A stretch of DNA of 64,000 nt from Nitrospira sp. (GTDB lineage Bacteria > Nitrospirota > Nitrospiria > Nitrospirales > Nitrospiraceae): contig SWDG01000007.1 in NCBI GenBank assembly GCA_005116965.1, positions 70,320-134,319 of the forward strand. The letters are read 5' to 3'. Shown here in pieces: positions 8,228-24,229 of this stretch (positions are counted from its first letter, which is position 1; the number at the start of each line of letters is the position of its first letter). Made by a program: the position numbers and the translations under genes. Below the pieces are notes generated by a model. That model did not search any database. It was not told the DNA's origin and saw only the letters and a program-made list of their open reading frames with translations.

Positions 8228-8599
8228 ATGCCACATGTTGTTGTAGAAGAAGCCGGAGATTTGCAGGGCCTCTACCAGGCATTCACACCGATGGTTCAAC
8301 GAACCGGCAACGAGATTCTCAAAGTTCAGGAATTCTATGTGTCCCGGAGCGGAAAAGACGCCCTGCTGGAGTCCGTGGCGATCGAGAAGGGTGCTGCGTG
8401 CACGTTCTTTGTCCAACTCAAGTCACACGAGAAAGCCATCACCGTCCGTCTGTTACCGGCCACAGATCCTGAAAAAACCCCTGCAGTCAAGAAGCTCATG
8501 GCCCTCGTCGCGGGATTCATTCGAAAAGTGTATCCAGGGAGTCGCTATGGTAAAACCAACCTTCAAGAATACTTAGTGCCAACGGCAGGCCCGGAATGA
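8228..8599 (+). CDS. Conserved-looking hypothetical protein
   Basis: 123 aa starting 12 bp after the DUF523-DUF1722 stop, with AAGGGA ahead of the ATG, so it is probably in the photolyase operon. There is no signal peptide or membrane span. The sequence is a compact alpha/beta mixture (MPHVVVEEAGDLQGLYQAF, ILKVQEFYVSRSGKDALLE, TFFVQLKSHEKAITVRLLPA, KKLMALVAGFIRKVYPG). I do not recognise a family. Its position suggests a role linked to the repair or photoprotection genes around it, which is only inference. Confidence 0.7.
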   Translation: MPHVVVEEAGDLQGLYQAFTPMVQRTGNEILKVQEFYVSRSGKDALLESVAIEKGAACTFFVQLKSHEKAITVRLLPATDPEKTPAVKKLMALVAGFIRKVYPGSRYGKTNLQEYLVPTAGPE

Positions 8600-8675
8600 C
8601 AGTGGAGAACCATACTGTACTGTTCAAGAAAGAGACCACGCATCTGCGGACAATTAGCACACATATGAACGCTAC

Positions 8676-9935
8676 GTGAAACACTCAACTCCACACGTGC
8701 TCATTATCGGCGCTGGTCTTGCCGGGTTGGCCTGTGCACGTCGACTGACACAATCAGGCCTCACCTGCACGATCCTTGAAGCTTCCGACGATATCGGTGG
8801 GCGTATCCGGACAGATCGCGTAGAGGGTTTTCAGCTCGATCGCGGATTCCAGATTCTTCTCACCGGCTACCCGGAAGCGCGCAAGACGCTGAACTATCCC
8901 GCGTTGAACCTCAGGCCTTTTCATCCTGGATCGCTCATTCGCTATGCCGGCCGGTTTCACTTGATGAGCAATCTCTTTCGTCGGCCGCAAGATCTGATTC
9001 AGACTTTGGTCAGCCCTATCGGCTCGCTCGCCGATAAGTTACGACTGTTGCGAGTGCGACGGGACACATTGCACCAGCGCCTCTGCTTCGAGATGAGCGA
9101 CCCCGCCCGTCCGACTCACGAAGTCTTGCAGACGTATCAATTTTCGGACGCTATGGTGACGCGTTTCTTCCACCCATTTCTCAGCGGCGTATTTTTGGAA
9201 ACCGGGTTGACAACGCCCTGCTGGATTTTTGAGCTTGTCTGGGGCGCCTTCTGCCGAGGAGCAACGGCCTTGCCACAAGATGGCATGGGCGCTATCGCAC
9301 AACAACTTGCGGCTCCATTGCCTCCGGGGACGATCCGCCTCAACCAAGCCGTACAACACATTCAGGGATCGAGTGTGGTGCTGGAGTCAGGGGAACAGCT
9401 CACGGGTGATGTGCTGGTGGTCGCGACAGATCATGCAACCGCTGCCCGCCTGCGTGGGGAGCACGTAGCAAGCTCCTCAGTCCGTGGTTCAATGACGCTC
9501 TATTTCGACGCGCCAGCTCCTCCGCAACCCGGACCCTGGTTGATATTGAACGGGGAAGGTACTGGGTTAGTCAGAACCCTCTGCGTGCTGAGTGAGGCGG
9601 CGCCTTCATACGCACCGCCTGGCCGAGCTTTGATCTCAGTGACAACTACTGAGCAGATTGAGGCACACGATGATTTGGTGCTAGCAGTGCGGCTATTTCT
9701 TCAATCCTGGTTCGGCTCGCAAGTTAACGGGTGGCGACATCTGCGGACCGATCACATTTACCACGCGCTACCTCCGATAGACTTACTTTCCCCCGGGAAC
9801 CGCACAGCCTCACCGCGCGTGGCTGCGGGTCTTTACCTTTGTGGCGATTACCGGGAGAGCGGTACACTGGATGGGGCGTTGTTGTCAGGCCGGAAAGCAG
9901 CTGAGGCAGTGCTGTCTGATTACGACCTGTCGTGA
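8676..9935 (+). CDS. FAD-dependent amine oxidase/protoporphyrinogen-oxidase-like protein
   Basis: 419 aa, GTG start without a clear ribosome site; a second GTG at 8697 (VLIIGAG) is possible. The N-terminus has the FAD-binding motif VLIIGAGLAGLACARRL followed by EASDDIGGRIRTD and FQLDRGFQILLTGYPEA. The C-terminus has the second FAD contact (GLYLCGDYRESGTLDGALLS). Overall it resembles flavin-containing amine oxidoreductases and phytoene-desaturase-like enzymes. The substrate cannot be read from sequence. Homologous oxidoreductases occur in photolyase/SDR stress clusters, which suits this position. It is convergent with 10019-10444. Confidence 0.85.
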   Translation: MKHSTPHVLIIGAGLAGLACARRLTQSGLTCTILEASDDIGGRIRTDRVEGFQLDRGFQILLTGYPEARKTLNYPALNLRPFHPGSLIRYAGRFHLMSNLFRRPQDLIQTLVSPIGSLADKLRLLRVRRDTLHQRLCFEMSDPARPTHEVLQTYQFSDAMVTRFFHPFLSGVFLETGLTTPCWIFELVWGAFCRGATALPQDGMGAIAQQLAAPLPPGTIRLNQAVQHIQGSSVVLESGEQLTGDVLVVATDHATAARLRGEHVASSSVRGSMTLYFDAPAPPQPGPWLILNGEGTGLVRTLCVLSEAAPSYAPPGRALISVTTTEQIEAHDDLVLAVRLFLQSWFGSQVNGWRHLRTDHIYHALPPIDLLSPGNRTASPRVAAGLYLCGDYRESGTLDGALLSGRKAAEAVLSDYDLS

Positions 9936-10018
9936 CTTCAACGGTGAGTGTTTCCTTGGTGTATTGGATCACTTGCCCGATAATCCGCCGACTCTAAGCC
10001 AAAGTCTTGAGCAACTCT

Positions 10019-10444
10019 TCAACGCCCGCAGGCTATCGTCATGAGTGCGGCCGTAGCTGTACCCGACGCCGACGTTACTAATTGGCCTGTGGCTCCAACC
10101 GTGCGGCCTGCTGCTCCGGACCCCATATGGTCGGCATACCACGTCGTTTTCACTGCCTGGCTCTTTTGATTCTGACAGTCATATTCTCGCACGGTGATTT
10201 TCGAGAGTACCGGAATGCCACCTTCTGCCTGTGCTGTTTTATAATCAAACAGATCAGACATAGTGACGGTTTCGTCCGCTTTCCGAATACTCCCTCGATC
10301 GGCGTAATAGGCGTACGTCTCCATCTTGCCAACTTTAGACCAATCAGCTACAGAGATCGTCGTCGGACTAGATGACGGCTCCCCTCCAGTACAGGCTGTC
10401 ATCCACATACAACTCAGCACCAGCAGCATACAGAGTCGCGGCAT
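10019..10444 (-). CDS. Adhesin-E-like exported lipoprotein
   Basis: 141 aa. The N-terminus is a lipoprotein-type signal (MPRLCMLLVLSCMWMTACTG, lipobox MTAC). The mature domain has the pattern of the surface-adhesin protein E family: ADWSKVGKMETYAYYADRGS, a short strand DETVTMSDLFDYK, SKITVREYDCQNQKSQAVKT and a late Cys (TIACGR), probably bonded to the Cys of YDC. A paralogue with the same W...G...D...DC pattern lies 22 bp upstream in the same operon. In Nitrospirota these small proteins are usually unannotated; adhesion is only a family label. Last gene of the glutathione peroxidase operon. Confidence 0.75.
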   Translation of the reverse strand: MPRLCMLLVLSCMWMTACTGGEPSSSPTTISVADWSKVGKMETYAYYADRGSIRKADETVTMSDLFDYKTAQAEGGIPVLSKITVREYDCQNQKSQAVKTTWYADHMGSGAAGRTVGATGQLVTSASGTATAALMTIACGR

Positions 10445-10892: not shown

Positions 10893-11537
10893 TCATCGTT
10901 CCATATCGACATGCGGTTTCCTTGTTGCCAAGGCTTTCTCCACATCGGACAGAATGGCAGGTGACAAAGGATTCATCCCGGGATCATATTTCCTGATCAC
11001 GTTTCCGGAGCGATCCACCAGGTACTTTTGGAAATTCCACGTCACACGGCCGGGGAAGGGACTCTCTTCAGTTAGATACCGATAGAGGGGATGCTTCTCT
11101 TTTCCGACAACGCTGATTTTTGAGAACAGGGGGAAACTGATGCTGTATTTTGTGTAGCAGAATCCTTTAATTTCTTGATTGGTCCCTGGCTCCTGCTGCC
11201 CAAAATCATTAGCCGGGAACGCCAAGACCTCGAATCCCCGTTCCCGATACCGCTCATACATTTCCTCAAGATCGGCATACTGCGGCGTATTGCCGCACAT
11301 GCTCGCGGTATTCACAATTAACAGCACTTTGCCCTTGAACGTCTTGAGATCGACGGGATGGCCATCGATGTCTGGGAGACGAAACCCATACAAAGGTGCT
11401 ATCAAGTTATCAGCACGTGACGGCACATTGGATTGTTTCTCCCTAGCATTGACGTCTGACTCGGTGAACGCACCAAGTCCCAGCCCCAGCAAGACGAGAC
11501 CGGGTAAGACAGGGAGAATTCTTGAGTAGATTGACAT
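10893..11537 (-). CDS. Exported glutathione peroxidase family protein
   Basis: 214 aa with an N-terminal signal or anchor (RILPVLPGLVLLGLGLGAF). The peroxidase domain carries the peroxidatic Cys at about residue 81 (VNTASMCGNTPQY, Cys rather than Sec), the Gln motif (FPANDFGQQEPGTN) and the Trp motif (RVTWNFQKYLVDRSG). The family reduces hydrogen or organic peroxides, bacterial Cys forms usually with thioredoxin. Export to the periplasm is unusual but predicted. It leads an operon with two adhesin-E-like proteins, and a peroxidase suits the nearby photolyase region. Its start codon lies about 135 bp from the divergent short ORF at 11672. Confidence 0.9.
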   Translation of the reverse strand: MSIYSRILPVLPGLVLLGLGLGAFTESDVNAREKQSNVPSRADNLIAPLYGFRLPDIDGHPVDLKTFKGKVLLIVNTASMCGNTPQYADLEEMYERYRERGFEVLAFPANDFGQQEPGTNQEIKGFCYTKYSISFPLFSKISVVGKEKHPLYRYLTEESPFPGRVTWNFQKYLVDRSGNVIRKYDPGMNPLSPAILSDVEKALATRKPHVDMER

Positions 11538-11671
11538 GGGAGCGTCTCCTTCCTTGGTCTAACCATCAAAATTGACTTGAACACTATCACAGCGTCACAT
11601 GTTTGTCTATATATTACTTGACAAACACTGAACACAGCGGTATGGTTATCTTGAGATTTGAAGTCTGCTGC

Positions 11672-11869
11672 ATGAAAAGGAGAGGCCTATGTCGGCAAAT
11701 AGTCTCCCCGACCACGCATCCCGATGGAGTGGTCAGAGGCGAAGCGACGCTGGCCCAAGGGCTCTACACGCTCATCATTACGCCAGAAGGGCTGAGCTCC
11801 TCGTATCGCTTACGAGTGCAGCAGTTCGATGCTGGCACGACAGGCCGGATCCGTTCCCCAGCCAGGTGA
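11672..11869 (+). CDS. Short hypothetical ORF running into the repeated 48-bp tail (possibly broken)
   Basis: 65 codons from ATG 11672. The stretch GVVRGEATLAQGLYTLIITP, EGLSSSYRLRVQQFDAGTTG has the GC-rich third positions expected of real coding sequence here. The ribosome site AAGGAG, however, fits the ATG at 11689, which is in another frame and gives a 68-residue product ending DPFPSQVNPNAKAGY. The data therefore suggest one of two things: a gene starting at 11689 with two frameshifts, or an old gene fragment joined to a foreign tail. The ORF ends IRSPAR inside the repeat shared with the truncated pheT. No family recognised. A strong terminator follows. Confidence 0.35.
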   Translation: MKRRGLCRQIVSPTTHPDGVVRGEATLAQGLYTLIITPEGLSSSYRLRVQQFDAGTTGRIRSPAR

Positions 11870-11894
11870 ATCCCAACGCCAAGGCCGGGTACTA
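11847..11894 (+). repeat. 48-bp direct repeat, copy 1 (gene-tail repeat)
   Basis: Identical to 18074-18121 except at one base (C at 11892, T at 18119). It starts GGATCCG and ends GGGTA-Y-TA. Read in the frame of GAT CCG it encodes DPFPSQVNPNAKAGY. The one internal difference is a synonymous TAC/TAT, and the next base beyond makes TAA here and TAG in copy 2. It sits at the 3' end of a short ORF and is followed by a terminator. Confidence 0.9.
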
Positions 11895-11928
11895 AACAGA
11901 AGATAAGCCTTCGCGTAGGGCTTGCAGT

Positions 11929-11970
11929 CAGAGGGCTGGTTCGGATATCCGGACCAGCCCTCTGCTTTTT
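11929..11970 (+). terminator. Strong Rho-independent terminator
   Basis: CAGAGGGCTGGT-T-CGGAT pairs with ATCCG-G-ACCAGCCCTCTG, an almost perfect 18-bp stem, followed by CTTTTT. It ends the short plus-strand ORF. From here to the receiver gene at 12204 I see no gene; the 11896-12203 gap holds only this terminator. Confidence 0.85.
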
Positions 11971-12203
11971 GGTAGAACGGATGCCAAACGAATGAGTCGG
12001 TTAGTTCAGTTGAATCAATACAGCTGGATTGTGGATAAACCGGTAGTAGACCTATGAGCTGAGGCTTGCCAAACAAGCATTGCTAGTGAGGGTCAGAAAG
12101 CATATCGAGCAACGCGGAGGAGCCCTTGCTTCCGTCTAGCGGGGGTCTGAAGTAACCTTTTGCGATTCGCAAGGGTTGTCACTCAGTATTCTAACTGAGT
12201 CAA

Positions 12204-12566
12204 TCAGTGCGCCAACTCATATCGGACGGCGCTCAGCAGCTCCTCAATGCCAAAGGGCTTGCGCAACGTTTGTCGTGCGCCCAACAGCCGGGCCGTTTTT
12301 CGCAGGTATTCATCACTGAATACTCCTGAGATGGCAATGACCTTGATGTCCAAGAATTCGCGAGTGAGCTCAATGATCGTATCGGACCCATTCAATTCAG
12401 GCATCAGAAGATCCACGATGACCAAATCTGCCGGCCTCTGACGGTACGACCCTAGACCTTCGCGCCCGTTAGCTGCTTCGACCACAGCGTATCCTGCCGA
12501 TTGAAGAGCTGTGGACAACAACGCGCGAATGGGGGCTTCATCATCAATTACTAATATGCTGGCCAT
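12204..12566 (-). CDS. Stand-alone response-regulator receiver protein
   Basis: 120 aa from the ATG preceded by GAAGGGA (MASILVIDDE); a longer TTG start at 12578 is less likely. A complete receiver: acidic pair D8-D9, phosphoacceptor D52 (VIVDLLMPELNG), Ser/Thr switch (VIAISG) and Lys (LRKPF). There is no output domain, so it acts by protein contact, CheY-like, or as a phosphorelay intermediate. It closely resembles the receiver at 43203-43574 (same D52, ARQTLRKPF versus ARRTLHKPF). No kinase is adjacent, so its partner must lie elsewhere. Confidence 0.9.
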   Translation of the reverse strand: MASILVIDDEAPIRALLSTALQSAGYAVVEAANGREGLGSYRQRPADLVIVDLLMPELNGSDTIIELTREFLDIKVIAISGVFSDEYLRKTARLLGARQTLRKPFGIEELLSAVRYELAH

Positions 12567-13025
12567 GCATCCCTTCAAAAAACATCACACTGAACAAGAA
12601 ACCTGTCGAAGTCTACGTGAAATGTGTCGAGTTTCAACAATAACCTGATTTACGGGAGAGGGAAGCATCTCAGCGTTTTAGGGCATGAGCTCCTTCAAGT
12701 CAGTGAGACCAAATGAGGTGACGTTGCGCCACCCTCCGGATTGATCCTTGAACGGCCCATAAAAGGGCGGTGGGAAGAAAGATCGCTTCTCACTAATCTT
12801 TGCCAGATGGTCGCCTTGATGCTCCCTCATCGCAATATGATCACGGTCAATTTCGATGGCCATGCGATATGCACATCACCATCCGGAAAGTTTATCTGCC
12901 GGCATCGAGATTCTTGATCGAGTTCCGGACGGAGTTAGCACAGTTTTAGCACAATCGGCTAATTTCACTGTGTCGGAAGCCGGGAGAGAATCGGTTGTAA
13001 GATATTGAAAGGAAAGAGAGACGGT
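12567..13025. other. Gene-poor 459-bp gap between receiver and tRNA-fMet
   Basis: Apart from the doubtful 61-codon ORF at 12678-12863 I see no gene. Near 12940-12960 the octamer TTAGCACA occurs in two close direct copies, just downstream of the 3' end of the initiator tRNA. No integrase is present, so I do not call an attachment site. Confidence 0.4.
12678..12863 (-). CDS. Doubtful small protein, 61 aa
   Basis: The ORF encodes a hydrophilic 61-residue protein (MAIEIDRDHIAMREHQGDHL, then SEKRSFFPPPFYGPFKDQSG, then GWRNVTSFGLTDLKELMP). Its Pro/Phe-rich middle and FGLTDLKEL end look protein-like, and third-position GC is only slightly raised. No clear ribosome site precedes the ATG. No family recognised. 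It could be a real small gene or chance. Confidence 0.3.
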   Translation of the reverse strand: MAIEIDRDHIAMREHQGDHLAKISEKRSFFPPPFYGPFKDQSGGWRNVTSFGLTDLKELMP

Positions 13026-13102
<77 letters not shown>

Positions 13103-13107
13103 GAGGG

Positions 13108-13137
13108 AGACTAACAAAGCGCTGAATGACAAGTCAA
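13108..13137 (-). promoter_or_regulatory. Promoter of tRNA-fMet
   Basis: On the minus strand TTGACT (13137-13132), an 18-bp spacer and TAGTCT (13113-13108) lie directly before the 5' end of the tRNA at 13102, at the spacing expected for a sigma-70 promoter. Confidence 0.55.
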
Positions 13138-13189
13138 GTTGAGGTGTTGCCGGATTGCATTCTCGGAATCACGATGTTAAAGCGATAGC

Positions 13190-14131
13190 ATGCGGATCGT
13201 CTTCATGGGCACACCGGAATTCGCGGTCCCGTCGCTTGAGGCACTTCTTCGATCCGGCGATCAGGTCGTCGGAGTCGTCACGCAGCCTGATCGACCGAAG
13301 GGAAGAGGTCATCAGCTCGTCGCGCCGCCCGTGAAACTGGTTGCGGAGCGTGCCGGCATTCCTATTCTACAGCCGCTCAAAATTCGTACACCCGAGTTCT
13401 TGCAGGCCCTTTCTGCCTGGCAGCCTGATCTCATCGCGGTCACAGCCTTCGGGCGGATTCTGCACACGCCGATTCTTCGGCTCCCAGCGATGGGCTGCGT
13501 GAATGTCCACGGGTCTCTGCTGCCAAAATATCGCGGCGCGGCGCCGGTCCAGTGGGCCGTCATCAATGGCGAGACCAAAACGGGTATTACCACGATGCTC
13601 ATGGATGAAGGAATGGATACTGGTCCCATGCTGCTCCAAGAGGAGTTGGATATCTCGCTTGATGATACGGCCGGGACATTGGCGCCTCGTATGGCAGAGC
13701 TAGGCGGGCAGCTACTCATCAAAACGATCGCTCAGCTGAAGGCGGGGACGTTGGTGCCGAAGAGGCAAGATGATGGACAGGCGACCATGGCTCCACTCTT
13801 GAAAAAAGAAGATGGCCTGATCGATTGGACAATGAACGCCACGTCGCTTGCCAATCGGGCACGAGGGCTTTCGCCCTGGCCAGGTGCATACACGTTTTTC
13901 GGTGAGGAGCGTTGGAATATATGGAAAGCAATCTCGCTTATGGGTGCGACGACCGAGAGGCCCGGAACGATCGTCACGGTGAATAAGCAGGTGATTCTGG
14001 TGGCGACAGGCGAGGGCATTCTTGAGATTCATGAAATCCAAACGGCCAATTCGAAACGCATGTCGGTCGTCCAATTCCTGGCTGGGCACCGAGTCACGGC
14101 CGGTATGCAATTGGGTTCATCGACTGCGTAA
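13190..14131 (+). CDS. fmt: Methionyl-tRNA formyltransferase
   Basis: 313 aa, the usual length. It transfers a formyl group from 10-formyl-tetrahydrofolate to Met-tRNA(fMet). The N-terminal domain shows MRIVFMGTPEFAVPSLEALL, VVTQPDRPKGRG, the catalytic-site region CVNVHGSLLPKYRGAAPVQW and GITTMLMDEGMDTGPML. The C-terminal tRNA-binding domain includes NRARGLSPWPGAYT. It heads a plus-strand run of translation and housekeeping genes (rsmB, rpe, pheS) and is divergent from the initiator tRNA gene. The ribosome site is weak. The product ends 40 bp before the rsmB start. Confidence 0.96.
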   Translation: MRIVFMGTPEFAVPSLEALLRSGDQVVGVVTQPDRPKGRGHQLVAPPVKLVAERAGIPILQPLKIRTPEFLQALSAWQPDLIAVTAFGRILHTPILRLPAMGCVNVHGSLLPKYRGAAPVQWAVINGETKTGITTMLMDEGMDTGPMLLQEELDISLDDTAGTLAPRMAELGGQLLIKTIAQLKAGTLVPKRQDDGQATMAPLLKKEDGLIDWTMNATSLANRARGLSPWPGAYTFFGEERWNIWKAISLMGATTERPGTIVTVNKQVILVATGEGILEIHEIQTANSKRMSVVQFLAGHRVTAGMQLGSSTA

Positions 14132-14171
14132 TTCTTCTCTTCACAACGGTTGCCATCTCCTTGTTCCAACT

Positions 14172-15590
14172 ATGACTGACGAAAGACCCGTGGGTACTGA
14201 TGTGCGGGGGCTCTCTCCACGATCGATCGCGCTCGCGATCCTCCTGTCCTGTCAACGAACTGATGACGCACTCGATGAGCTGATCGAACAACGAGCCACA
14301 TCAATTCCACAGCCTCGTGACCGCTCGCTGGTCATGGAGCTGGTGTATGGGACCTTACGGCGACAGGAGACGGTTGATTGGAGGCTTGATGCGGTTCTCG
14401 CCAAACCTCTCCACAGATTACCGATGGTCATTCAAATGTTACTGCGGCTTGGCGCCTACCAGCTGCTGTTTCTCGATCGCATTCCGGCTTCCGCAGCGGT
14501 GAACGAAACCGTCCTCTTGACGAAGTCCTACGCGAAACAATTAGGACGCGATTGGAGTGGGTTGGTGAATGGAGTTCTGCGAAACCTGATTCGTGTACCG
14601 GCGCCACCTTTCCCAGATCCAGCAAGTTATCCGGCTCAATCGTTATCTATTCGGTATGGAATCCCAATTTGGCTGACAGAGCGGTGGCTCGGCCGAATGG
14701 GACTTGAACAAGCAGAATTGGCTTGTCGAGCAAGCAGTACGGCCCCAAGTGTTACCCTGCGAGTGAACGCCAATCGACTCACCAGGGAAGAGTTTTTGGA
14801 GAAGTTGCGGCAGGCCGGTATTGAGGCACACCCGACTGCGATCAGTCCTGTCGGGGTGGTGTTGGACAAAGGCCAGGCTGTCACGTCGTTGCCAGGGTTC
14901 CAGTCTGGCGATTTCTATGTGGAAGATGAAGCGGCTCAACTCATTCCTCGGATCCTTGATCCTCAACCTGGCGAAACGGTGCTGGATGCCTGCGCCGCTC
15001 CAGGCGGCAAGGCGACGCACCTGGCCGAACTCATGCGTGATCGCGGAACGATCTATGCGGTTGATCGGAAGACTCTCCGCATGGACCTCCTTCGACAAAA
15101 TTGCGGACGATTGGGCGCGCGGAGCGTCGTGCCAATCGTCGGCGATGTGAGAACACCATCCGAATGGGCCGGGGTGATCGCCCGCAGGCCGATCCTCCAT
15201 AAGGAACCGCTGCAGGTCGATCGGATACTCGTGGATGCCCCGTGCAGTGGGTTGGGTGTGTTGCGCCGGCATCCTGAAGCGAAATGGCGGAAGGACAGTT
15301 CGACGTTCGCCAGGCACCAGACACTTCAAGCTGAAATCCTTGCCTCGGTGGCTTCCTGCTTGCGACCCGGTGGGGTGCTAGTCTATAGTACCTGCTCGAC
15401 AGAAACGGAAGAGACGGAAGGGGTCATCACCTCTTTTTGCGATGCCTATCCTGAATGGATGCGTGAATCTGTGGCGCCGTGGGTTCCCACCACGGCTCTC
15501 CCCTTTGTGACCATCTGCGGCGCGTTCTCGACTATGGGTAACGAGTGCGGGATGGATGGCTTTTATGCCGCCCGCCTACGGAAGAAATAA
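14172..15590 (+). CDS. rsmB: 16S rRNA (cytosine-967-C5)-methyltransferase
   Basis: 472 aa from ATG 14172 (MTDERPVGTDVRGLSPRSIA). The open frame extends upstream but overlaps fmt and is not protein-like. The N-terminal NusB-like RNA-binding domain (ALAILLSCQRTDDALDELIE, LVMELVYGTLRRQ, AVNETVLLTK, GLVNGVLRNLIR) is followed by a Rossmann SAM domain with DACAAPGGKATHLAELM, VDAPCSGLGVLRRHPEAKWR (one catalytic Cys) and VYSTCSTETEE (the second catalytic Cys). Both cysteines of m5C methyltransferases are present, and the NusB fusion identifies RsmB rather than RsmF. Its stop overlaps the rpe start by one base (TAATG). Confidence 0.92.
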   Translation: MTDERPVGTDVRGLSPRSIALAILLSCQRTDDALDELIEQRATSIPQPRDRSLVMELVYGTLRRQETVDWRLDAVLAKPLHRLPMVIQMLLRLGAYQLLFLDRIPASAAVNETVLLTKSYAKQLGRDWSGLVNGVLRNLIRVPAPPFPDPASYPAQSLSIRYGIPIWLTERWLGRMGLEQAELACRASSTAPSVTLRVNANRLTREEFLEKLRQAGIEAHPTAISPVGVVLDKGQAVTSLPGFQSGDFYVEDEAAQLIPRILDPQPGETVLDACAAPGGKATHLAELMRDRGTIYAVDRKTLRMDLLRQNCGRLGARSVVPIVGDVRTPSEWAGVIARRPILHKEPLQVDRILVDAPCSGLGVLRRHPEAKWRKDSSTFARHQTLQAEILASVASCLRPGGVLVYSTCSTETEETEGVITSFCDAYPEWMRESVAPWVPTTALPFVTICGAFSTMGNECGMDGFYAARLRKK

Positions 15591-16291
15591 TGGGTCATTC
15601 GATTCAGATCGCCCCCTCAATCCTTTCCGCGGATTTTGCTCGATTGGCCGATGAAGTAGCCGCAGTGGAGCGAGCGGGTGCCGATCTGCTACACGTGGAT
15701 GTCATGGACGGGCATTTTGTGCCGAACCTGACAGTGGGGCCACCTATTGTCGAAAGTCTCAAAAAAGTCACCAAGCTTCCACTTGACGTTCATTTGATGA
15801 TCACCAACGCCGATGCGTTCATCCCTGAGTTTGTCGATGCCGGAGCCGACTATTTGACCGTACATGTCGAGGCCTGCCCGCATCTCCATCGCACGATTCA
15901 ATCGATTAAGGAACGGGGGATCAAGGCCGGAGTAACCTTAAATCCTGCGACGCCACTCTCGTTGCTTCAGGAGATCTTGGGAGATGTCGACTTGGTGTTG
16001 ATCATGTCGGTGAATCCTGGATTCGGCGGGCAAAAGTTTATCCCATCGGTGCTTAGAAAAATTGCCGATACACGGGCACTGTTGGACAAGATCAAAAGCC
16101 AGGCGCTGCTAGAAGTGGATGGTGGCGTGAAGGTGGAAAATACTCAAGAGATCGTGGCCGCCGGAGCGACGGTCCTCGTGGCAGGGTCCGCGATTTTTTC
16201 CCAACGCGACTATACAGCGACCATTGCGGCCATGCGGGCGGCTGGAGCAATGGCCGTCTCGCCGGCGTCACGCGCCGCGGTCCATCAATAG
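15590..16291 (+). CDS. rpe: Ribulose-phosphate 3-epimerase
   Basis: 233 aa from the ATG overlapping the rsmB stop. It interconverts ribulose-5-phosphate and xylulose-5-phosphate in the pentose phosphate and Calvin pathways. Motifs of the TIM barrel and its metal site are intact: APSILSADFARLADEV, LLHVDVMDGHFVPNLTVGPP, LDVHLMITNADAFI, YLTVHVEAC, LVLIMSVNPGFGGQKF, LEVDGGVKVENTQEI and VLVAGSAIF. Cytoplasmic. The tail beyond residue ~218 (AMAVSPASRAAVHQ) is a little longer than usual. Confidence 0.96.
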   Translation: MGHSIQIAPSILSADFARLADEVAAVERAGADLLHVDVMDGHFVPNLTVGPPIVESLKKVTKLPLDVHLMITNADAFIPEFVDAGADYLTVHVEACPHLHRTIQSIKERGIKAGVTLNPATPLSLLQEILGDVDLVLIMSVNPGFGGQKFIPSVLRKIADTRALLDKIKSQALLEVDGGVKVENTQEIVAAGATVLVAGSAIFSQRDYTATIAAMRAAGAMAVSPASRAAVHQ

Positions 16292-16300
16292 GCGGCTTAG

Positions 16301-17866
16301 GTGGACATCTCCACACTCATCGACAGTCTGCACCCTCTCGAAATTAAAGTACTGACGACCTTAGGGCTTCACCCGTCGGGAACCGCTCTGGGCAGCGAAC
16401 AGTTGGCCGGCGCAGCTGAGTTGGAGGCGTCTCAACTCAGCATGGCGGTCGAGTGGTTATTGGCCAAGTCTCTCATCACGGTCCAGACGGAAACGGTGAC
16501 GCCCATCGTCTCGCTGACGAAGATCGGGGAGGAATATCACCAGACCGCCTCGCCCATCGAGCGAGTCCTGGTGGCTGCGCGGGAAGCCACCGGCACCGGG
16601 AAACGACTGACCATTCCTGACCTTCAGTCGCAAGGCGGACTGGACGCTTCGGATGTCAGCAAAGCTGTCGGGCGACTGAAAAAGGAAGGGGTGGTGCTGA
16701 TCATCCAGGGAGGGTGTATCGAGACAACTGGACGCCCGAGTTCGACTGTCGAGGCACTCCGAACCCTCCTGGGGGACATGCATGACTCGCCGAAAGAGCT
16801 GAAGAGCTTCACGGAAGCCCATCGGCAGATCATTGAAGACTTTGCCGTGAAACGTGGCAATGCCAAAGAACCGTTCCGTGTGGACGAGCGGGTGGCCCGC
16901 TCATTTGTATTGTCACCGGACGGAGCAGGTGCAGCGGCGCACTTGCTGACGCAGGGGGTTGCTGAAGAAGTTTCGCAGTTGACTCCCGACTTGTTGAAGG
17001 ATGGGAGTTGGCGTCAGACGCGATTGAGAAAGTACACGATCAGTCTGCGCCCGCCTCGTATCGGAACAGGAAAGAAACATCCCTATCGTGAATTTCTCGA
17101 TACGGTCAAAACCAAACTTGTGAGCATGGGGTTCCAAGAGATGCGGGGGGCGCTGGTCGAAACCGAGTTCTGGGACATGGATGCCCTGTTCATGCCGCAA
17201 TTCCATCCAGCCCGGGACATTCACGATGTCTATTTCGTCAAGGAGCCCAGCCATACCACCGCCGTGGATGAACCGTTCTTGTCGCGTGTGGCCAAGGTAC
17301 ATGAGAGCGGCGCAGAGACTGGTTCCACAGGCTGGGGCTATTCGTTTGATGTGCATCGGGCTAAACGGTTGGTGTTGCGGAGTCAGGGCACGGCGGTGTC
17401 GGCTCGAACTCTTGCTGCTTCGCCACACATTCCCGGGAAATATTTCTCGATTGCCCGGTGTTTTCGCTATGACCAAGTCGACGCCACCCACGCCACGGAT
17501 TTTTTCCAGGTGGAGGGGATTGTGCTGGGAGAAGACATCAACTTTCGGACACTGTTGGGGCTCTTGAATTTGTTTGCCCGGGAAGTGGCACAAGCGAAGG
17601 AAGTAAAGTTCTTACCGGCCTATTTCCCGTTTACTGAACCGTCGGTCGAGATGCATGTGCGGCATCCACGCCTGGGATGGATGGAACTCGGCGGCGCTGG
17701 TCTCTTTCGCTCCGAAGTGACGTTGCCGCTCGGTGTCACGGTGCCGGTCATTGCCTGGGGGTTGGGTCTCGATCGCATGGCGATGGTGGCGTTGGGCATA
17801 CATGATATCCGCGAACTCTTTACCGACAACCTGGAATTGATCCGCACGACCAGAGGACTGTTCTAA
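16301..17866 (+). CDS. pheS: Phenylalanyl-tRNA synthetase alpha subunit, archaeal/eukaryotic type
   Basis: 521 aa with a GTG start, far longer than the ~340 aa of ordinary bacterial PheS. The first ~200 residues are winged-helix modules typical of archaeal and eukaryotic alpha subunits. The catalytic core follows: HPYREFLDTVKTKLVSMGF, ETEFWDMDALFMPQFHPARD, motif 2 (FSIARCFRYDQVDATHATDF, then FQVEGIV) and motif 3 (VIAWGLGLDRMAMVALGIHD, then IRELF). It charges tRNA-Phe together with PheT in an (alpha-beta)2 enzyme. The next gene, 8 bp downstream, is the start of an archaeal-type pheT that breaks off early, so this PheS has no complete partner in the window. An archaeal-type PheRS is known in spirochaetes; here it implies ancient transfer. 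Confidence 0.93.
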   Translation: MDISTLIDSLHPLEIKVLTTLGLHPSGTALGSEQLAGAAELEASQLSMAVEWLLAKSLITVQTETVTPIVSLTKIGEEYHQTASPIERVLVAAREATGTGKRLTIPDLQSQGGLDASDVSKAVGRLKKEGVVLIIQGGCIETTGRPSSTVEALRTLLGDMHDSPKELKSFTEAHRQIIEDFAVKRGNAKEPFRVDERVARSFVLSPDGAGAAAHLLTQGVAEEVSQLTPDLLKDGSWRQTRLRKYTISLRPPRIGTGKKHPYREFLDTVKTKLVSMGFQEMRGALVETEFWDMDALFMPQFHPARDIHDVYFVKEPSHTTAVDEPFLSRVAKVHESGAETGSTGWGYSFDVHRAKRLVLRSQGTAVSARTLAASPHIPGKYFSIARCFRYDQVDATHATDFFQVEGIVLGEDINFRTLLGLLNLFAREVAQAKEVKFLPAYFPFTEPSVEMHVRHPRLGWMELGGAGLFRSEVTLPLGVTVPVIAWGLGLDRMAMVALGIHDIRELFTDNLELIRTTRGLF

Positions 17867-17874
17867 CTCCACGT

Positions 17875-18096
17875 ATGCCTACCATCACGATTTTCAAGGA
17901 CGATCTAGAGTCGCTTCTGACGGGTGAGGGCGATGTCGACCGTGACATTCCGATGGCGCAGTTGGAAGAGTGGCTCATGCTCGTGAAGGGCGAGCTGAAG
18001 GGGCACAATCCGGAAACCGGAGAGTTGCGTATCGAACTGCAAGATAGCAATCGGCCGGACCTCAGGCCATTCTGGATCCGTTCCCCAGCCAGGTGA
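17875..18096 (+). pseudogene. pheT: Truncated phenylalanyl-tRNA synthetase beta subunit (N-terminus only)
   Basis: 73 codons. Residues 1-~63 match the N-terminus of archaeal-type PheT (PMAQLEEWLMLVKGELKGHN, ETGELRIELQDSNRPDL). In the family the NRPDL motif is followed by a Trp/Glu-Gly-Ile-Ala-Arg segment and another ~480 residues. Here it switches to RPFWIRSPAR and stops inside the 48-bp repeat also found at 11847-11894. No other pheT sequence is present in the window. An intact second copy elsewhere, a recent deletion, or an assembly join within the repeat could explain this. Since PheT is essential, a plain null allele is improbable. The start is 8 bp after pheS, as expected for a pheST operon. 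Confidence 0.8.
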
Positions 18097-18121
18097 ATCC
18101 CAACGCCAAGGCCGGGTATTA
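18074..18121 (+). repeat. 48-bp direct repeat, copy 2 (gene-tail repeat at the pheT break)
   Basis: 47 of 48 bases match 11847-11894. The match starts at GGATCCG immediately after the pheT homology has ended. In the GAT frame it reads QAILDPFPSQVNPNAKAGY then TAG; this frame is not that of pheT. Relative to copy 1 the internal change is TAC to TAT (Tyr), and TAA becomes TAG at the adjoining base. Confidence 0.9.
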
Positions 18122-18149
18122 GTTGAGAGCGTGAGTGGAGTGAGGATTC

Positions 18150-18180
18150 GGCCCGGAACTCCCTTGAGGGGTTCCGGGCC
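18150..18180 (+). terminator. Strong hairpin after the pheT fragment
   Basis: GGCCCGGAAC-t-CCC pairs with GGG-GTTCCGGGCC around a TTGA loop, about 13 bp in all. It is followed by CAACTATG rather than a T-run, and 20 bp later by the cbiX-like start. It may end the pheS transcript or shape the leader of the next gene. Confidence 0.6.
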
Positions 18181-18201
18181 CAACTATGTATAGGAGGATG
18201 C

Positions 18202-18735
18202 ATGGCGACCCATCAGCGTGGAGTCATTTTGGTTGGACACGGTGGCATTCCAAAAGGGTGCCCTCCAGAACTTGTCACGAAACTGAAACGGCTGGAAGGC
18301 CAGCGCCGTGCGGCAAAGATTCCACCTTCAGCAGAAGAACTGGAGCTCGATGCCAAAATCCGCCAGTGGCCAAGAACAGCGGAGACCGATCCCTATCAAG
18401 TAGGTCTCGAAGCAGTGGCAGCACGGCTGCGAGCTCAACTAGACGGCGCACTATTTGCCGTGGCCTACAATGAGTTTTGCGCACCGACGTTAGAGGAATC
18501 GGTTGAGTCGTTAATCAAGCAGGGGGCGACTCATATCACCGTGACGACGACGATGTTTACCCCAGGTGGTTCACATTCCGAAGTCGAGATTCCCGAAATC
18601 CTCGATCAGTTGCGGCCACAGTATCCTGAGGTCGAGCTGCGTTACGCCTGGCCCTTCGACCTTGAATCGGTTGCCAACACGTTAGCCGAACAAATCCGAC
18701 GGTTTTCCCAAGCAGTTCCACTTGGGAAGGCGTGA
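18202..18735 (+). CDS. CbiX-family sirohydrochlorin chelatase-like protein
   Basis: 177 aa, ATG preceded by AGGAGG (7 nt). The N-terminal metal-site motif is RGVILVGHGGIPKGCP. The domain continues with LFAVAYNEFCAPTLEESVES, LIKQGATHITVTTTMFTPGG and SHSEVEIPEILDQLRPQYPE; H of GHGG and H of GGSHSEVEIP are the expected metal ligands. The CbiX/SirB family inserts Co, Ni or Fe into sirohydrochlorin for cobalamin, F430 or siroheme. About 45 extra residues sit between the two motif groups, making it longer than small CbiX proteins, so chelatase activity is likely but the metal is open. No other tetrapyrrole gene is nearby. Next gene is pyrE. Confidence 0.8.
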   Translation: MATHQRGVILVGHGGIPKGCPPELVTKLKRLEGQRRAAKIPPSAEELELDAKIRQWPRTAETDPYQVGLEAVAARLRAQLDGALFAVAYNEFCAPTLEESVESLIKQGATHITVTTTMFTPGGSHSEVEIPEILDQLRPQYPEVELRYAWPFDLESVANTLAEQIRRFSQAVPLGKA

Positions 18736-18808
18736 AAAGGTATGTTCTGTGGAGACCACTCCGTGTAGAATACCTCCTAACTTTTGGCTGTCGCACTAGG
18801 GAGAACGC

Positions 18809-19387
18809 ATGGTGACGGTTCGGGAGCAATTGGCGCAAGCATTTCACAATACGCAGTCGTTTAAATGGGATCGTGACAAGGGATTCAAGCTCGCCTCAGG
18901 CGAGATCAGCCCTTTTTATGTCGATTGTCGTGCCCTCATGGCGCATCCTGAAGCGCGTCGTCTGGTCGCACAACTGGCCTATGAAGCGCTCGCGGACATT
19001 GAATTCGACTGTCTGGGTGGCCTCGAACTCGGAGCTATCCCGATCGCCGTGACCATTTCAGATTTTGCCTGCGCTGCTTCGCGTCAACGCCTCTGGCGGA
19101 CGTTCGTCGTTCGCAAGCAGGCCAAAGACCATGGTCTTGGAAAGCTGATCGAGGGTAGCATCCGTCTCAGCGACCGAGCCGTGATCGTGGACGATGTGCT
19201 CACGAGCGGTGGGTCCCTGTTGAAAGCGGTGGGGGTCGCCCGAGAAGCCGGGCTTCTGGTGGATCACGCTTTCGTGATTGTGGACCGCCAGGAACAGGAT
19301 GGGAGAGCACGTGTGGAAAGAGAAAAGATACGGCTAATCAGTCTCCTAACTGTTCAAGATCTCACGAGCACGATGAAGAAGCCCTAG
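18809..19387 (+). CDS. pyrE: Orotate phosphoribosyltransferase
   Basis: 192 aa, ATG after AGGGAGA. It joins orotate to PRPP to make OMP in pyrimidine synthesis. The PRPP-binding motif is at residues ~123-136 (RAVIVDDVLTSGGS). The flexible-loop residues RKQAKDHGLGKLIEG and the N-terminal GFKLASGEISPFYVDCRAL are typical of PyrE. Cytoplasmic. It is convergent with the lipoprotein gene at 19422. Confidence 0.94.
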   Translation: MVTVREQLAQAFHNTQSFKWDRDKGFKLASGEISPFYVDCRALMAHPEARRLVAQLAYEALADIEFDCLGGLELGAIPIAVTISDFACAASRQRLWRTFVVRKQAKDHGLGKLIEGSIRLSDRAVIVDDVLTSGGSLLKAVGVAREAGLLVDHAFVIVDRQEQDGRARVEREKIRLISLLTVQDLTSTMKKP

Positions 19388-19421
19388 CGCCATTTCCAAA
19401 ATCATACGTTCCGGGTCCCGC

Positions 19422-19742
19422 TCATTTGCATTCGAACTGAATCCCCCAGCGCCGCTCCTCTACCAGTTCTTGCGCCCCATCAAGCGGACTCACGACTCGA
19501 GTGCGTCCTTTGGCTTCTCCCTCACGAACAATGCCATAGGAACTGCCGCCACCACATTTCTCTTTCATGAGGTCGAGGGCCTCCTGGCGAAATGAAGAGA
19601 GCATCGGTCCCTGTCCTTCTTTGAATGGATAGATGACGACCCCACCCGCGTCATGTTGCTGAACGATCTTTGCGCCATCGGCGCAGCCTCCAACGGATAG
19701 GCATGCCGCTGCCACGATGGTTTTCAGCCAAGATTTACTCAT
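19422..19742 (-). CDS. Small lipoprotein of unknown function
   Basis: 106 aa. The signal ends in a lipobox-like LSVGGC (MSKSWLKTIVAAACLSVGGC), so the mature protein is probably lipid-anchored. The rest is a compact domain: AKIVQQHDAGGVVIYPFKEG, SSFRQEALDLMKEKCGGGSS, YGIVREGEAKGRTRV, ERRWGIQFECK. Two cysteines (EKCGGG and FECK) could be disulfide-bonded. Many small Nitrospirota lipoproteins have this GGVVxYPF and final FxC pattern, but I cannot name a Pfam family. Its ATG overlaps the TAA of the upstream NAGPA gene, so the two are translationally coupled. Confidence 0.78.
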   Translation of the reverse strand: MSKSWLKTIVAAACLSVGGCADGAKIVQQHDAGGVVIYPFKEGQGPMLSSFRQEALDLMKEKCGGGSSYGIVREGEAKGRTRVVSPLDGAQELVEERRWGIQFECK

Positions 19743-20590
19743 TACCTGGGACTGGCCCCAATCACGGTGGGCAACGGGATATGACTACCCGTGCTGCCCC
19801 CGAACAGACTCTTCCAGGAAGCATGTTCTGCTACACGCAGATCGTTATCCCACAGCGACTCAAAAATTCGGACATCTGAGGAAGACCCACCGTCCATGGC
19901 CATCGCTTGACGCACAGCGGGAAGCGCATCTTTGAAACACTGGCCGATGTCGTATAAGCGAACAGCTCCAAGGCTCTTCAAGAGAAGAATGTGTCCGGCT
20001 TCCGTTTCAGCGACAATCGTCTGATAGGCATGTTTCCCACCCTCGCGGACACGGATCTTGCCGGTCAGATCTAGCAGCATTAACGCCTGTGCTGCTTCAC
20101 GGTAGCGCGGTTGTGCTTCGTCGAAACGCTCTGCAGCCAAATCAAGAATCCGCGCCTTCTTCAACCCCAAGGCGAACGGTTCTGCAACAAACAATCCCTG
20201 CCATGAGGTATGGCGCCGGCTTCCCAACGAACGCCCGTCCTTATAGAGGAGACCAAGATACGCAAAGTTTTCCCGGAACAACCCGCCATTGAATAGCACA
20301 TGATGACCCGTTCGCTTCTGCCATTCGTCGATTCTGGGCGGTTCTGAAAGCCCTTCTTGGGCGTAATGATGAACGGAGAACTTTGTGCGTTCCGGATCCA
20401 TATCGACAACCAGCATGGTCGGCACGGTAGGACACGCATCGCCTGGTTTCCACACCGACACCATGAGGCCGTCAGATAGGCGCTCCCACGAAATATCTTG
20501 GGCTGGACACAGACTAGGCAGTAGCACCAGGCTTAGGATGAAAAAGCGCACGGCATGTTTGGCGCCTTTACGCCACCGGCGCCTATTCAT
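19742..20590 (-). CDS. Exported phosphodiester glycosidase family (NAGPA domain) protein
   Basis: 282 aa from the ATG with GCAGGGA upstream (MNRRRWRKGAKHAVRFFILS); the longer frame to 20644 is unlikely. A signal peptide ends near LCPAQD. The domain shows NAGPA features: KFSVHHYAQEG, VLFNGGLFRENFAYLGLLYK, HTSWQGLFVAEP, and the C-terminal active-site-like MDGGSSSDVRIF. Members hydrolyse phosphodiester-linked sugars or act on surface polysaccharide, but the bacterial substrate is generally unknown. Periplasmic or outer-envelope location is inferred. Operon with the small lipoprotein, which may be its partner. A 57-bp gap separates it from the hybrid kinase. Confidence 0.85.
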   Translation of the reverse strand: MNRRRWRKGAKHAVRFFILSLVLLPSLCPAQDISWERLSDGLMVSVWKPGDACPTVPTMLVVDMDPERTKFSVHHYAQEGLSEPPRIDEWQKRTGHHVLFNGGLFRENFAYLGLLYKDGRSLGSRRHTSWQGLFVAEPFALGLKKARILDLAAERFDEAQPRYREAAQALMLLDLTGKIRVREGGKHAYQTIVAETEAGHILLLKSLGAVRLYDIGQCFKDALPAVRQAMAMDGGSSSDVRIFESLWDNDLRVAEHASWKSLFGGSTGSHIPLPTVIGASPR

Positions 20591-20647
20591 GACAGTCCCT
20601 GCAAACACACAGTCATAGCGACTAGCCAGGTAACGACAGCTCATAGT

Positions 20648-22324
20648 TCACGCTCGGTTGACGCTCTGTGACTCTTCAATAGCCTCCGATTTTTGATCGC
20701 AACTCGTCGGAGTTGTCGGCTTCATATCCAACAACTCACGCACGGAACTTGCCAGCGCTTCCGGTGTAACCGGCTTCTGCAGAAAAGCACTCGCCGGGTC
20801 ACGAGCCCCGATACCGACATCATCCGTATACCCAGAAATGAAAAGCAGCTTCAATTCGGGTTTAATCACGCGAAGATGCCTCGCCAGTTCAGTCCCACTC
20901 ATCCCCGGCATCACGACATCCGTGAGCAACAGCTTGAGCTTCTCAATATGCGGCGTAGCCACCAGACACGCCTCTATACCATTTCTTGCTTCGACGACAC
21001 GATAGCCAAGTTTACGAAGCTCATCTCGAATGAGTACACGAACCTCTTCCTCATCCTCAACAAGAAGAATGGTTTCATGTCCTACTACCGACTGCACCTG
21101 GACGTGTTCGTCTTCTGGCACTTCGATCTCACTGACGACCCGCGGGAAATACACCTCGAAACGCGTCCCCACTCCTATCTCGCTGATCACATCCAATCCT
21201 CCACCGCCTTCGGTGACGATACCGAACACAGTGGAAAGCCCAAGTCCAGTCCCCTTTCCTTCCTCCTTGGTCGTAAAGAAAGGCTTAAAGATCTGCGCCT
21301 GTACCTCAGGAGACATTCCACAGCCTGTGTCGGATACCGATATCTTCACGTACTCTCCAGGCGGGAGCGGATTGACATGATATGTCGGCGCATAGTCAAG
21401 ATCAGCCGACGCAGTTTCAATCGTCAGCTTGCCGCCAGTCGGCATCGCATCTCGCGCGTTTATGACAAGATTCATCACAACCTGCTCGGCAAAGGCGGAG
21501 TCGGCTTTGATTCGAAGATCGTCCACGCTCAGTCTCAACGTCAGTTGAATATCCGTTCCAATCAACCTCCGAAGCATACTCTCGCAATTACTGAGGGTGG
21601 CATTCAGGCTCAGCACTTTCGATCCAGAAGGCTGTTTTCTGCTGAAGGTGAGCAACTGGCGAATAAGCATCTTCGCTCGCTCACCCGCCTTCTGCATTTC
21701 TTCCACCCTATTTCTCAGGGGGTGATCCGGACCCATTTCACTGAGCAGCACCTGACTCTGTCCCATAATGACCATCAACAAGTTATTAAAATCGTGTGCA
21801 AGTCCTCCCGCCAAACGGCCGACAGCCTCAAGCTTTTGAAGCTGCCGAAGTTGCATTTCGCTTTGCAGCAGTGCTTCCTCCGCTTGCCTTCGTGCCACTC
21901 GTGCTTCTCGCTCACGCAGTACGCGGCGCACCGATGGGACCAGTCGACCTAATCTTTCTTTGGAAATGCAATCTGTCGCGCCACGATACATGTGTTCGAA
22001 ACACAGGGTCTCAGCACGCGCTGCCGAGATAAAGATAAACGGCACGTCAGGAGCCAGCTGTTGAGCCACCTCCAGAGCCCCCCCCTCATCAAACCCATGT
22101 AGGAAGAATTCAGCCAAGATGAGGTCCACCTGGCCATCATTCAGAGCAGCCGAAAAGGTGCGGCGAGTCTCTACCCGTCGTATCGTACACGACAGCCCTC
22201 CATCGACCAGCAGGGCCTCGATACGAGCCGCATCGTGTGGGTTAGCCTCTAGATGCAAGACTCTTAGCAGAGTCGTCATGGTAACGTCAGTGGGTGGAAC
22301 GGCAATTTTCAGGAGGGGGTTCAT
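20648..22324 (-). CDS. Hybrid histidine kinase with degenerate N-terminal receiver and C-terminal receiver
   Basis: About 558 aa; starts at GTG 22333, ATG 22324 or ATG 22279 are all possible. The N-terminal ~120 residues align with receivers of the RVLYVEDNP...LILSDYSLPGFDG type but read RVLHLEANPHD and LILAEFFLHGFDE. One pocket Asp is Ala and the phosphoacceptor is Glu, a possible permanent phospho-mimic. Then come the kinase core with H180 (GLAHDFNNLLMVIMGQSQVL), N-box MNLVINARDAM, G boxes ISVSDTGCGMSPE and GKGTGLGLSTVFGIV, and a normal receiver with D472 (LLTDVVMPGMSG). No membrane span, so cytoplasmic. It follows a receiver and a CHASE3 kinase in one operon. Confidence 0.9.
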   Translation of the reverse strand: MNPLLKIAVPPTDVTMTTLLRVLHLEANPHDAARIEALLVDGGLSCTIRRVETRRTFSAALNDGQVDLILAEFFLHGFDEGGALEVAQQLAPDVPFIFISAARAETLCFEHMYRGATDCISKERLGRLVPSVRRVLREREARVARRQAEEALLQSEMQLRQLQKLEAVGRLAGGLAHDFNNLLMVIMGQSQVLLSEMGPDHPLRNRVEEMQKAGERAKMLIRQLLTFSRKQPSGSKVLSLNATLSNCESMLRRLIGTDIQLTLRLSVDDLRIKADSAFAEQVVMNLVINARDAMPTGGKLTIETASADLDYAPTYHVNPLPPGEYVKISVSDTGCGMSPEVQAQIFKPFFTTKEEGKGTGLGLSTVFGIVTEGGGGLDVISEIGVGTRFEVYFPRVVSEIEVPEDEHVQVQSVVGHETILLVEDEEEVRVLIRDELRKLGYRVVEARNGIEACLVATPHIEKLKLLLTDVVMPGMSGTELARHLRVIKPELKLLFISGYTDDVGIGARDPASAFLQKPVTPEALASSVRELLDMKPTTPTSCDQKSEAIEESQSVNRA

Positions 22325-22742
22325 TGATGACACCCCAAAATGTTCCTAGCTCCTTGACGGCGGACAAGAATTTGTGAAACTCCACGGGCTTGACGACGTA
22401 GGCATTGGCCCCCAAGGCATAGCTCTCGGCCAGGTCACGTTCTTCTCGCGACGATGTCAGCATCACGACGGGAATCGGACGAAGATCGGCGTCCGTCTTG
22501 ATGGTACGCAAGACCTCAAGGCCGTTCACTTTGGGCATTTTCAGATCAAGAAACACAACAGCTGGATTCCCTTTCAGCCGTGACTTGAATTGTCCTCGAC
22601 AATACAGATAGTCCAACACTTCAGCGCCATCATGGCACAGCACGACTTTTTCTGAGATATGCTCGGCCTCCATGGCAGCCAAGGCCAGCTCGGCGTCTCG
22701 CGGGTTATCTTCGGCGAGAAGGATCGGTTTGGCCGCCGTCAT
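22287..22742 (-). CDS. Rcp1-type single-domain response regulator
   Basis: 151 aa. A receiver of the cyanobacterial-phytochrome (Rcp1) type: acidic pair in ILLAEDNPRDAELALAAM, phosphoacceptor D66 (AVVFLDLKMPKVNGLEVLRT), switch Thr (VVMLTSSREERD) and Lys (AYVVKPVEFHKF). No output domain. Its start overlaps the stop of the CHASE3 kinase by ATGA, so it is almost certainly that kinase's partner. Its 3' end reaches the start region of the hybrid kinase. A three-gene kinase/receiver/hybrid arrangement suggests a phosphorelay. Confidence 0.92.
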   Translation of the reverse strand: MTAAKPILLAEDNPRDAELALAAMEAEHISEKVVLCHDGAEVLDYLYCRGQFKSRLKGNPAVVFLDLKMPKVNGLEVLRTIKTDADLRPIPVVMLTSSREERDLAESYALGANAYVVKPVEFHKFLSAVKELGTFWGVINEPPPENCRSTH

Positions 22743-24229
22743 GAGTCACGCCCCCTCATTGGTAGTAGAACATAAAACGTCGCCCCTTTGTCCGGCACAC
22801 TTTCGGCCCAGGTCCGTCCCCCGTGACGATGAACGATCCGACGAACGTTGGCGAGACCAATGCCCGTCCCCTCAAACTCATCAGCTCGGTGCAGTCTCTG
22901 GAACACTCCAAACAGTTTGGGAGCGTACTGCATGTCGAATCCCACGCCATTGTCGCGGACGAAAAGGACGATTTCCGTAGAGCTGGGGTGCTCCACACCG
23001 ATCTCAATCGTCGCGATCGGCCTGGTGCTCGTAAACTTCACGGCATTTGCGATCAAGTTCATAAAGACCTGTCGGAGCATGGCCGGATCGCCCTGTACTT
23101 CAGCCAATGGCGAGATTGTCCATGATATCTCTCGTCCTTGCAAGTCCAAGCGGAGATCAGAAAGGATGTTCTTGATCAACTGATCAAGGTTGACAGCGGT
23201 ATGAAGCATTTCTTGCCGACCCATACGAGAGAACACCAACAAGTCGTCGATCAGCTGTCCCATCTGTTTGGCAGAATCGGAGATCGTCTGCAAATAGCGA
23301 GCAGCCTTGTCATTCAGTGAATGCTCGACCGCTTTCCGCAAGAGCGCGGCATAGCCGTCAATATGTCGCAGCGGAGCTCGTAGGTCGTGGGAGACTGAAT
23401 AGCTGAATGCTTCCAATTCTTTGTTTGCAGACTCCAAGAGCTCTCCTCGCCGTTGGAGTTCCCCGGCTACACGTCGTCGTTCCGTGAGGTCATGGTGAAT
23501 GAGATAGTATACCCATGCCAGCAGAACCAGCTGCAGCAATGCACCGATGCCGAGGAGTACGATGGTAGCTTTGGTCCCGGCGGATGATTCCACGACACGC
23601 CGACTTATTGCCTGTCGCTCATGCACATCCATCTCCGCAATAATTTTGTGAATCACGCCAAGCTCACGTTTTCCGGCCCCTTCAAAGGCCATTTTCTTGA
23701 CGGCTCGGAAGCCGCCCTCCTGAAACAGCGCTATAGCTTTTGATTCTGCGTTCAGTTGCCGGTCCATCATCCGATCGAGAAGTCCGGCCCGTTGTTGATG
23801 CTCAGGTGATTCACGGATCAAGTCATTAAGATACGCGATGAATGTCGGCTTCTGCTTCACAACCTGCTTGTACGCTTCCAGATACGACGCCTCTCCAGTC
23901 ACCAGATAACGACGGTGTGTATCTTCTGCTTCACTCATCGCCACATCGATATTGTTCAGGAGCTGGATGAGCTCCTGACTGCGGCCATCCAATCCCCTGT
24001 TCGCAAGTAGGATCTTCATATTGCCATAGGATACGGCGCTCACGATAAGAATCCCCACGAACACCAGGCTAAAACCAGCTAGCACCCGTTGCTCAATGGT
24101 CAGTCGGTAAAACCACGCGATGGCAGCACGGTACAAACTAGATGAGCTGGCAGGAACGGAGGATGAAGGCGCGGGTTCCTCAGTCGCTAAGGAAGGAGCC
24201 AGTGAATGATGGTTGGAGGCTGATTCCAT
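22739..24229 (-). CDS. Membrane sensor histidine kinase with CHASE3-type periplasmic domain
   Basis: 496 aa. After a Pro/Ser-rich cytoplasmic lead come TM1 (~50-69, AGFSLVFVGILIVSAVSY) and a helical extracytoplasmic domain of ~150 residues. That domain has the CHASE3 pattern (VAMSEAEDTHRRYLVTGEAS, YLEAYKQVV). TM2 follows at ~222-244, then HisKA with H281 (AFSYSVSHDLRAPLRHIDGY) and HATPase_c (MNLIANAVKFTS, FVRDNGVGFDMQYAPKLFGV, GTGIGLANVRRIVHRHGGR). All catalytic boxes are intact. The ligand of CHASE3 domains is unknown. First gene of the operon with the Rcp1-type receiver and the hybrid kinase. Confidence 0.92.
   Translation of the reverse strand: MESASNHHSLAPSLATEEPAPSSSVPASSSSLYRAAIAWFYRLTIEQRVLAGFSLVFVGILIVSAVSYGNMKILLANRGLDGRSQELIQLLNNIDVAMSEAEDTHRRYLVTGEASYLEAYKQVVKQKPTFIAYLNDLIRESPEHQQRAGLLDRMMDRQLNAESKAIALFQEGGFRAVKKMAFEGAGKRELGVIHKIIAEMDVHERQAISRRVVESSAGTKATIVLLGIGALLQLVLLAWVYYLIHHDLTERRRVAGELQRRGELLESANKELEAFSYSVSHDLRAPLRHIDGYAALLRKAVEHSLNDKAARYLQTISDSAKQMGQLIDDLLVFSRMGRQEMLHTAVNLDQLIKNILSDLRLDLQGREISWTISPLAEVQGDPAMLRQVFMNLIANAVKFTSTRPIATIEIGVEHPSSTEIVLFVRDNGVGFDMQYAPKLFGVFQRLHRADEFEGTGIGLANVRRIVHRHGGRTWAESVPDKGATFYVLLPMRGRDS

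Follow-up and report, generated by a model that had tools for sequence, protein, structure and literature searches.

The window considered here, the whole 64,000-nucleotide stretch of Nitrospira DNA that was analysed, raises the question of whether pheT, a single-copy and essential gene, has really been cut in this organism or only in its assembly. Directly 3' of an intact pheS (16301..17866, + strand, 521 aa; NF003210 (PRK04172.1), E 2e-167) begins an ORF of 73 aa (17875-18096, + strand), which ends, as the preliminary description had reported, with ELRIELQDSNRPDL followed by RPFWIRSPAR and a stop. Residues 1-63 of this ORF match positions 1-55 of TIGR00471 (pheT_arch) with an E of 6e-4, bearing out the earlier reading of an archaeal-type PheT N-terminus, and the ORF scores 18.4 bits against a curated cut-off of 282.65, below the level of a full-length member. 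Codons 1-63 (17875..18062, + strand), the 5' part of the gene for the archaeal-type PheRS beta subunit, share 61-97% amino acid identity with the pheT of 19 same-genus relatives, and the homology to intact relatives ends at 18062-18066, the DNA identity to the closest sister loci being 92-95%; the break after about 63 residues that had first drawn attention to the locus is thereby confirmed. A PheT of about 550 aa had been expected, and while the large size holds, the sister loci indicate about 570 aa.

To the right of the break, homology to amoC begins at 18064, which places a chimeric junction of pheT and an amoC tail at 18063..18064. The only full-length amoC in this assembly, a match to PF04896 and NF041641, belongs to the amoCAB operon on contig C1, and its 3' end has 91% identity with the sequence from 18064 onward. 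In the amoC frame the DNA from 18064 reads AILDPFPSQVNPNAKAGY, then a stop at 18120-18122; 18064..18122 (+ strand) thus preserves ~18 codons and the stop from the end of a non-operon amoC whose body is absent, and RPFWIRSPAR is amoC DNA read out of frame, not altered PheT. The genome is that of a comammox Nitrospira; such genomes are known to have one or more additional amoC genes outside the operon (PMC6311188). The 48-bp repeat at which the break had been placed is real: its copies at 11847-11894 and 18074-18121 are identical at 47 of 48 bases, and a third copy lies on C1. The repeat belongs to the coding region of a multi-copy gene, being the 3' end of amoC, and a mobile-element or REP-like role for it was dropped on that ground. 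The coincidence of break and repeat is not exact, since the junction at 18062/18064 lies about 10 bp before the perfect repeat.

The amoC tail is followed by a spacer with a terminator-like inverted repeat and the leader of a CbiX-like gene (18123..18201, + strand), which is the same as the spacer between an intact amoC and the CbiX-like gene in Nitrospira sp. RSF5. The CbiX-like gene itself (18202..18735, + strand; PF01903) stands directly after the amoC tail in RSF5, G013 and G017 and is the natural downstream neighbour of this amoC copy; the contigs of G013 and G017 end inside amoC just upstream of it. A second amoC 3' end without its body lies at 11847..11895 (+ strand), followed by the sequence that stands downstream of amoC in Nitrospira sp. 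CG24B and L122. Both tails are 3' ends of the non-operon AmoC of comammox Nitrospira (PF04896, NF041641), but unlike the known copies they lack their bodies. Fused to the second tail is the C-terminal fragment of an uncharacterised gene (11708..11846, + strand), whose counterparts, here called gene A', are found on contig C27 of the same assembly and in CG24B (74-88% DNA identity); 11708-11895 is a second wrecked amoC site, which lacks the amoC body and the greater part of the gene before it. On C27, gene A' (L001 2991-3537) is secreted-looking and without a Pfam match; it recurs ~140-180 nt upstream of amoC in several comammox genomes (L111, L112, L104, L115, L119, L101) and is a candidate partner of the non-operon amoC.

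The preliminary description had proposed searching the genome for the missing parts of PheT. A TIGR00471 profile search of the window's own assembly returned a single PheT match elsewhere, at C27:516604-517992 on the minus strand, covering positions 97-551 of the profile (E 3e-118). This C-terminal piece has 463 codons and no start of its own, scores 395 bits, above the family cut-off, and borders directly on a scaffold gap whose length is exactly 100 N; the displaced partner of the window fragment is therefore present in the same assembly, at a gap. Between the two pieces, 128 bp that are present in sister species are absent from both, interrupting this archaeal-type PheRS beta gene in the assembly, and these 128 bp were not found anywhere in the window's assembly. 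Neither a second nor a bacterial-type PheT was found in the assembly by the TIGR00471 search, which also detects PheT in E. coli and B. subtilis controls. The window's codons 1-63 and the 463 codons on C27 represent opposite ends of a single ordinary pheT, the former being normal sequence that was almost certainly severed by a misjoin.

Relatives retain the loci from which the two sides of the junction come. Among named records, Nitrospira sp. CG24B and RSF5 come closest, with 98% PheS identity. In CG24B (L119) the order is gene A' of C27, amoC, window 11847-18066, the 128 bp, the C27 part of pheT and further C27 sequence, and the stretch between L119 555 and 13901 is free of N. The pheT of CG24B is intact at 572 residues (462 bits against TIGR00471), intact genes of 570-572 codons are present in five sister loci (L119, L122, L120, L121, L056), and in the closest of these the pheT end of the block is continuous with C27 sequence. 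The block 11847..18062 (+ strand), comprising the amoC tail, a response regulator, tRNA-Met, fmt, an rsmB-like gene, rpe, pheS and the front of pheT, is collinear in CG24B, and this 6.2-kb segment most likely belongs in the 100-N gap of C27. The sequence to the right of the junction is found whole in another setting: on L241 of RSF5, window 11371-11700 is followed by a complete amoC and then by window 18064-24000, at 94-96% identity and without pheS or pheT, the counterpart of 18064-18408 (94%) standing directly after the intact amoC. Window ~8570 adjoins window ~18190 in many relatives, which makes the left and right parts of the window natural neighbours.

The nature of the assembly bears on how such a join could arise. 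Eleven runs of N, each of exactly 100, occur in ~419 kb sampled from C27 and from C7, the contig that carries the window, and this uniform length indicates a scaffolded draft. The window starts right after one of these gaps (C7 70220-70319) but contains no N itself, and the region of the junction at 18063 reads cleanly. Given that there is no N in the stretch carrying the join, the scaffolder is not responsible and the assembler must be. Runs of 100 N are also found in the close relatives CG24B, RSF5 and CG24D, and the filter genomes that include CG24B and RSF5 were assembled with IDBA-UD, reassembled, and scaffolded under reference guidance with MeDuSa (PMC8751384); the identical 100-N gaps suggest that the window's draft came from the same IDBA-UD/MeDuSa pipeline. 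The C27 join may itself be reference-guided and would then not be independent evidence of gene order. The draft is rated 99% complete and 0.8% contaminated, and a misjoin in spite of these scores indicates that completeness scores do not reveal such joins.

The position of the break also has a counterpart in the relatives. When the block and pheT are aligned across five sister species, the longest identical run, 59 bp at L119 11761-11819, begins where the window leaves pheT (L119 about 11762), and the same run is the longest in a four-species comparison over 6.7 kb. De Bruijn assemblers lose their path in identical stretches common to co-occurring species. Comammox genomes contain several amoC copies that are nearly identical, and in these short-read assemblers halt or go astray. 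G095, a Nitrospira draft at a greater distance (76% identity), has a contig that terminates at pheT nt 319, compared with nt 321 for C27, and in G080 the contig ends shortly after pheT nt 237; of the 85 amoC matches in relatives, at least 33 are no more than 4 nt from a contig end.

Taken with the intact loci and the lost half of pheT at a 100-N gap, these comparisons strongly support one of the possibilities raised at the outset, that the assembly joined two loci which have the repeat in common: the break is almost certainly a misjoin that fused pheT to an amoC tail, and not biology. The segment from the amoC tail at 11847 to pheT codon 63 at 18062, 6.2 kb, would have been taken from its place at the C27 locus and inserted between the window's left part and the tail of another amoC copy, from 18064 onward. 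In the organism, this piece would fill the 100-N gap of C27 and pheT would be continuous at about 570 residues, while a full amoC would join the left and right parts of the window. We infer both that the assembler took a wrong path here and that the species shares the gene order of its relatives. A variant of the misjoin holds that the window is truly contiguous from its left part to pheT codon 63, the amoC body having collapsed at 11847; the sole wrong join would then be that at 18063, the scaffolder would have bridged the N gap of C27 by copying the order of a reference, and pheT would again be whole. This arrangement has a precedent in RSF5 contig L120, where window 8431-10408 adjoins 13025-18066 (tRNA-Met-fmt-pheS) and the rest of pheT without N; owing to this contig, the block's left border is less secure than its right one. 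The variant is nevertheless unlikely, given that CG24B carries the C27 gene A' upstream of the block, that RSF5 itself joins 11371-11700 to amoC and then CbiX, and that the ~8570 and ~18190 positions are adjacent in many relatives. Under either version of the misjoin, pheT is whole in the organism.

A real rearrangement, in which pheT was severed behind codon 63 by illegitimate recombination and became attached to the amoC tail, with PheT split or otherwise supplied, would account for a junction that is free of N and reads cleanly. It is, however, very improbable for several reasons. Apart from the window's fragment, the assembly contains no PheT sequence but the startless C-terminal part of the same gene at an N gap, which argues against the deletion with pheT supplied from elsewhere that had been considered earlier, and the 128 bp missing from both parts speak against a split gene. 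The junction pattern is absent from the other genomes of the genus, the only occurrence among 79 (at up to 3 mismatches) being the window's own, the break coincides with a stretch identical between sister species, and a single-copy essential gene would have been disrupted. That pheT is truly cut after codon 63, leaving a PheT encoded in two places that lacks or exchanges residues 64-106, is scarcely credible. As to a natural family of PheT-like proteins of about 73 residues, which had been named as an observation that would overturn the reading of a truncated gene, no support was found, and a search of the 78 other genus members turned up none; where the contigs of relatives are uncut, PheT is of the 570-aa class, the last 10 residues here are amoC DNA out of frame, and of the short PheT matches, G058 and G049 among them, those examined, in G095 and G080, end at contig ends, so that the probability of such a family is practically negligible. 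Among these 78 other members 70 have a PheT match above the family cut-off, and 48 of 49 good-quality genomes of the genus have a pheT match.

Assembly damage at amoC has been seen before. Pinto et al. 2015 (PMC4863621), in early work on comammox, reported partial amoC genes at scaffold ends; in their metagenome bins amoC breaks the assembly as it does here and two partial copies lie on different scaffolds; those scaffolds simply ended, whereas the ends in the window were joined to the wrong sequence. amoC, a gene of prime interest in nitrification, is a frequent breaking point of comammox drafts; joins made in it can displace essential genes nearby, falsify gene order and the number of amoC copies, and create 'gene losses' that never happened. 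In CG24B, one amoC copy (L119 5265-5629) has 433 bp missing inside it without N, and another (L246 around 10062) joins codon 29 to codon 217, also without N; these two internally shortened copies are probably assembly errors too.

Three further observations were made alongside. The archaeal-type PheRS (pheS NF003210, pheT TIGR00471) is used across the genus Nitrospira, with the 70 other genomes above the cut-off noted earlier, and no paper settling the matter of archaeal-type PheRS in Nitrospira was found in the literature library searched. Within the block, the 3' end (~45 bp) of the tRNA-Met gene (CAT anticodon by ARAGORN; window 13026..13102, - strand) is repeated nearby in relatives (L116 7374-7422, L101 10829-10874, L103 10349-10393), and gene order changes at these repeats, as at an island integration site between amoC and fmt. 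Further along the window, a 29-55 nt segment recurs imperfectly within 47172-51466, its copies lying ~375-1600 nt apart and probably representing the repeated sensor domains of large signalling proteins.
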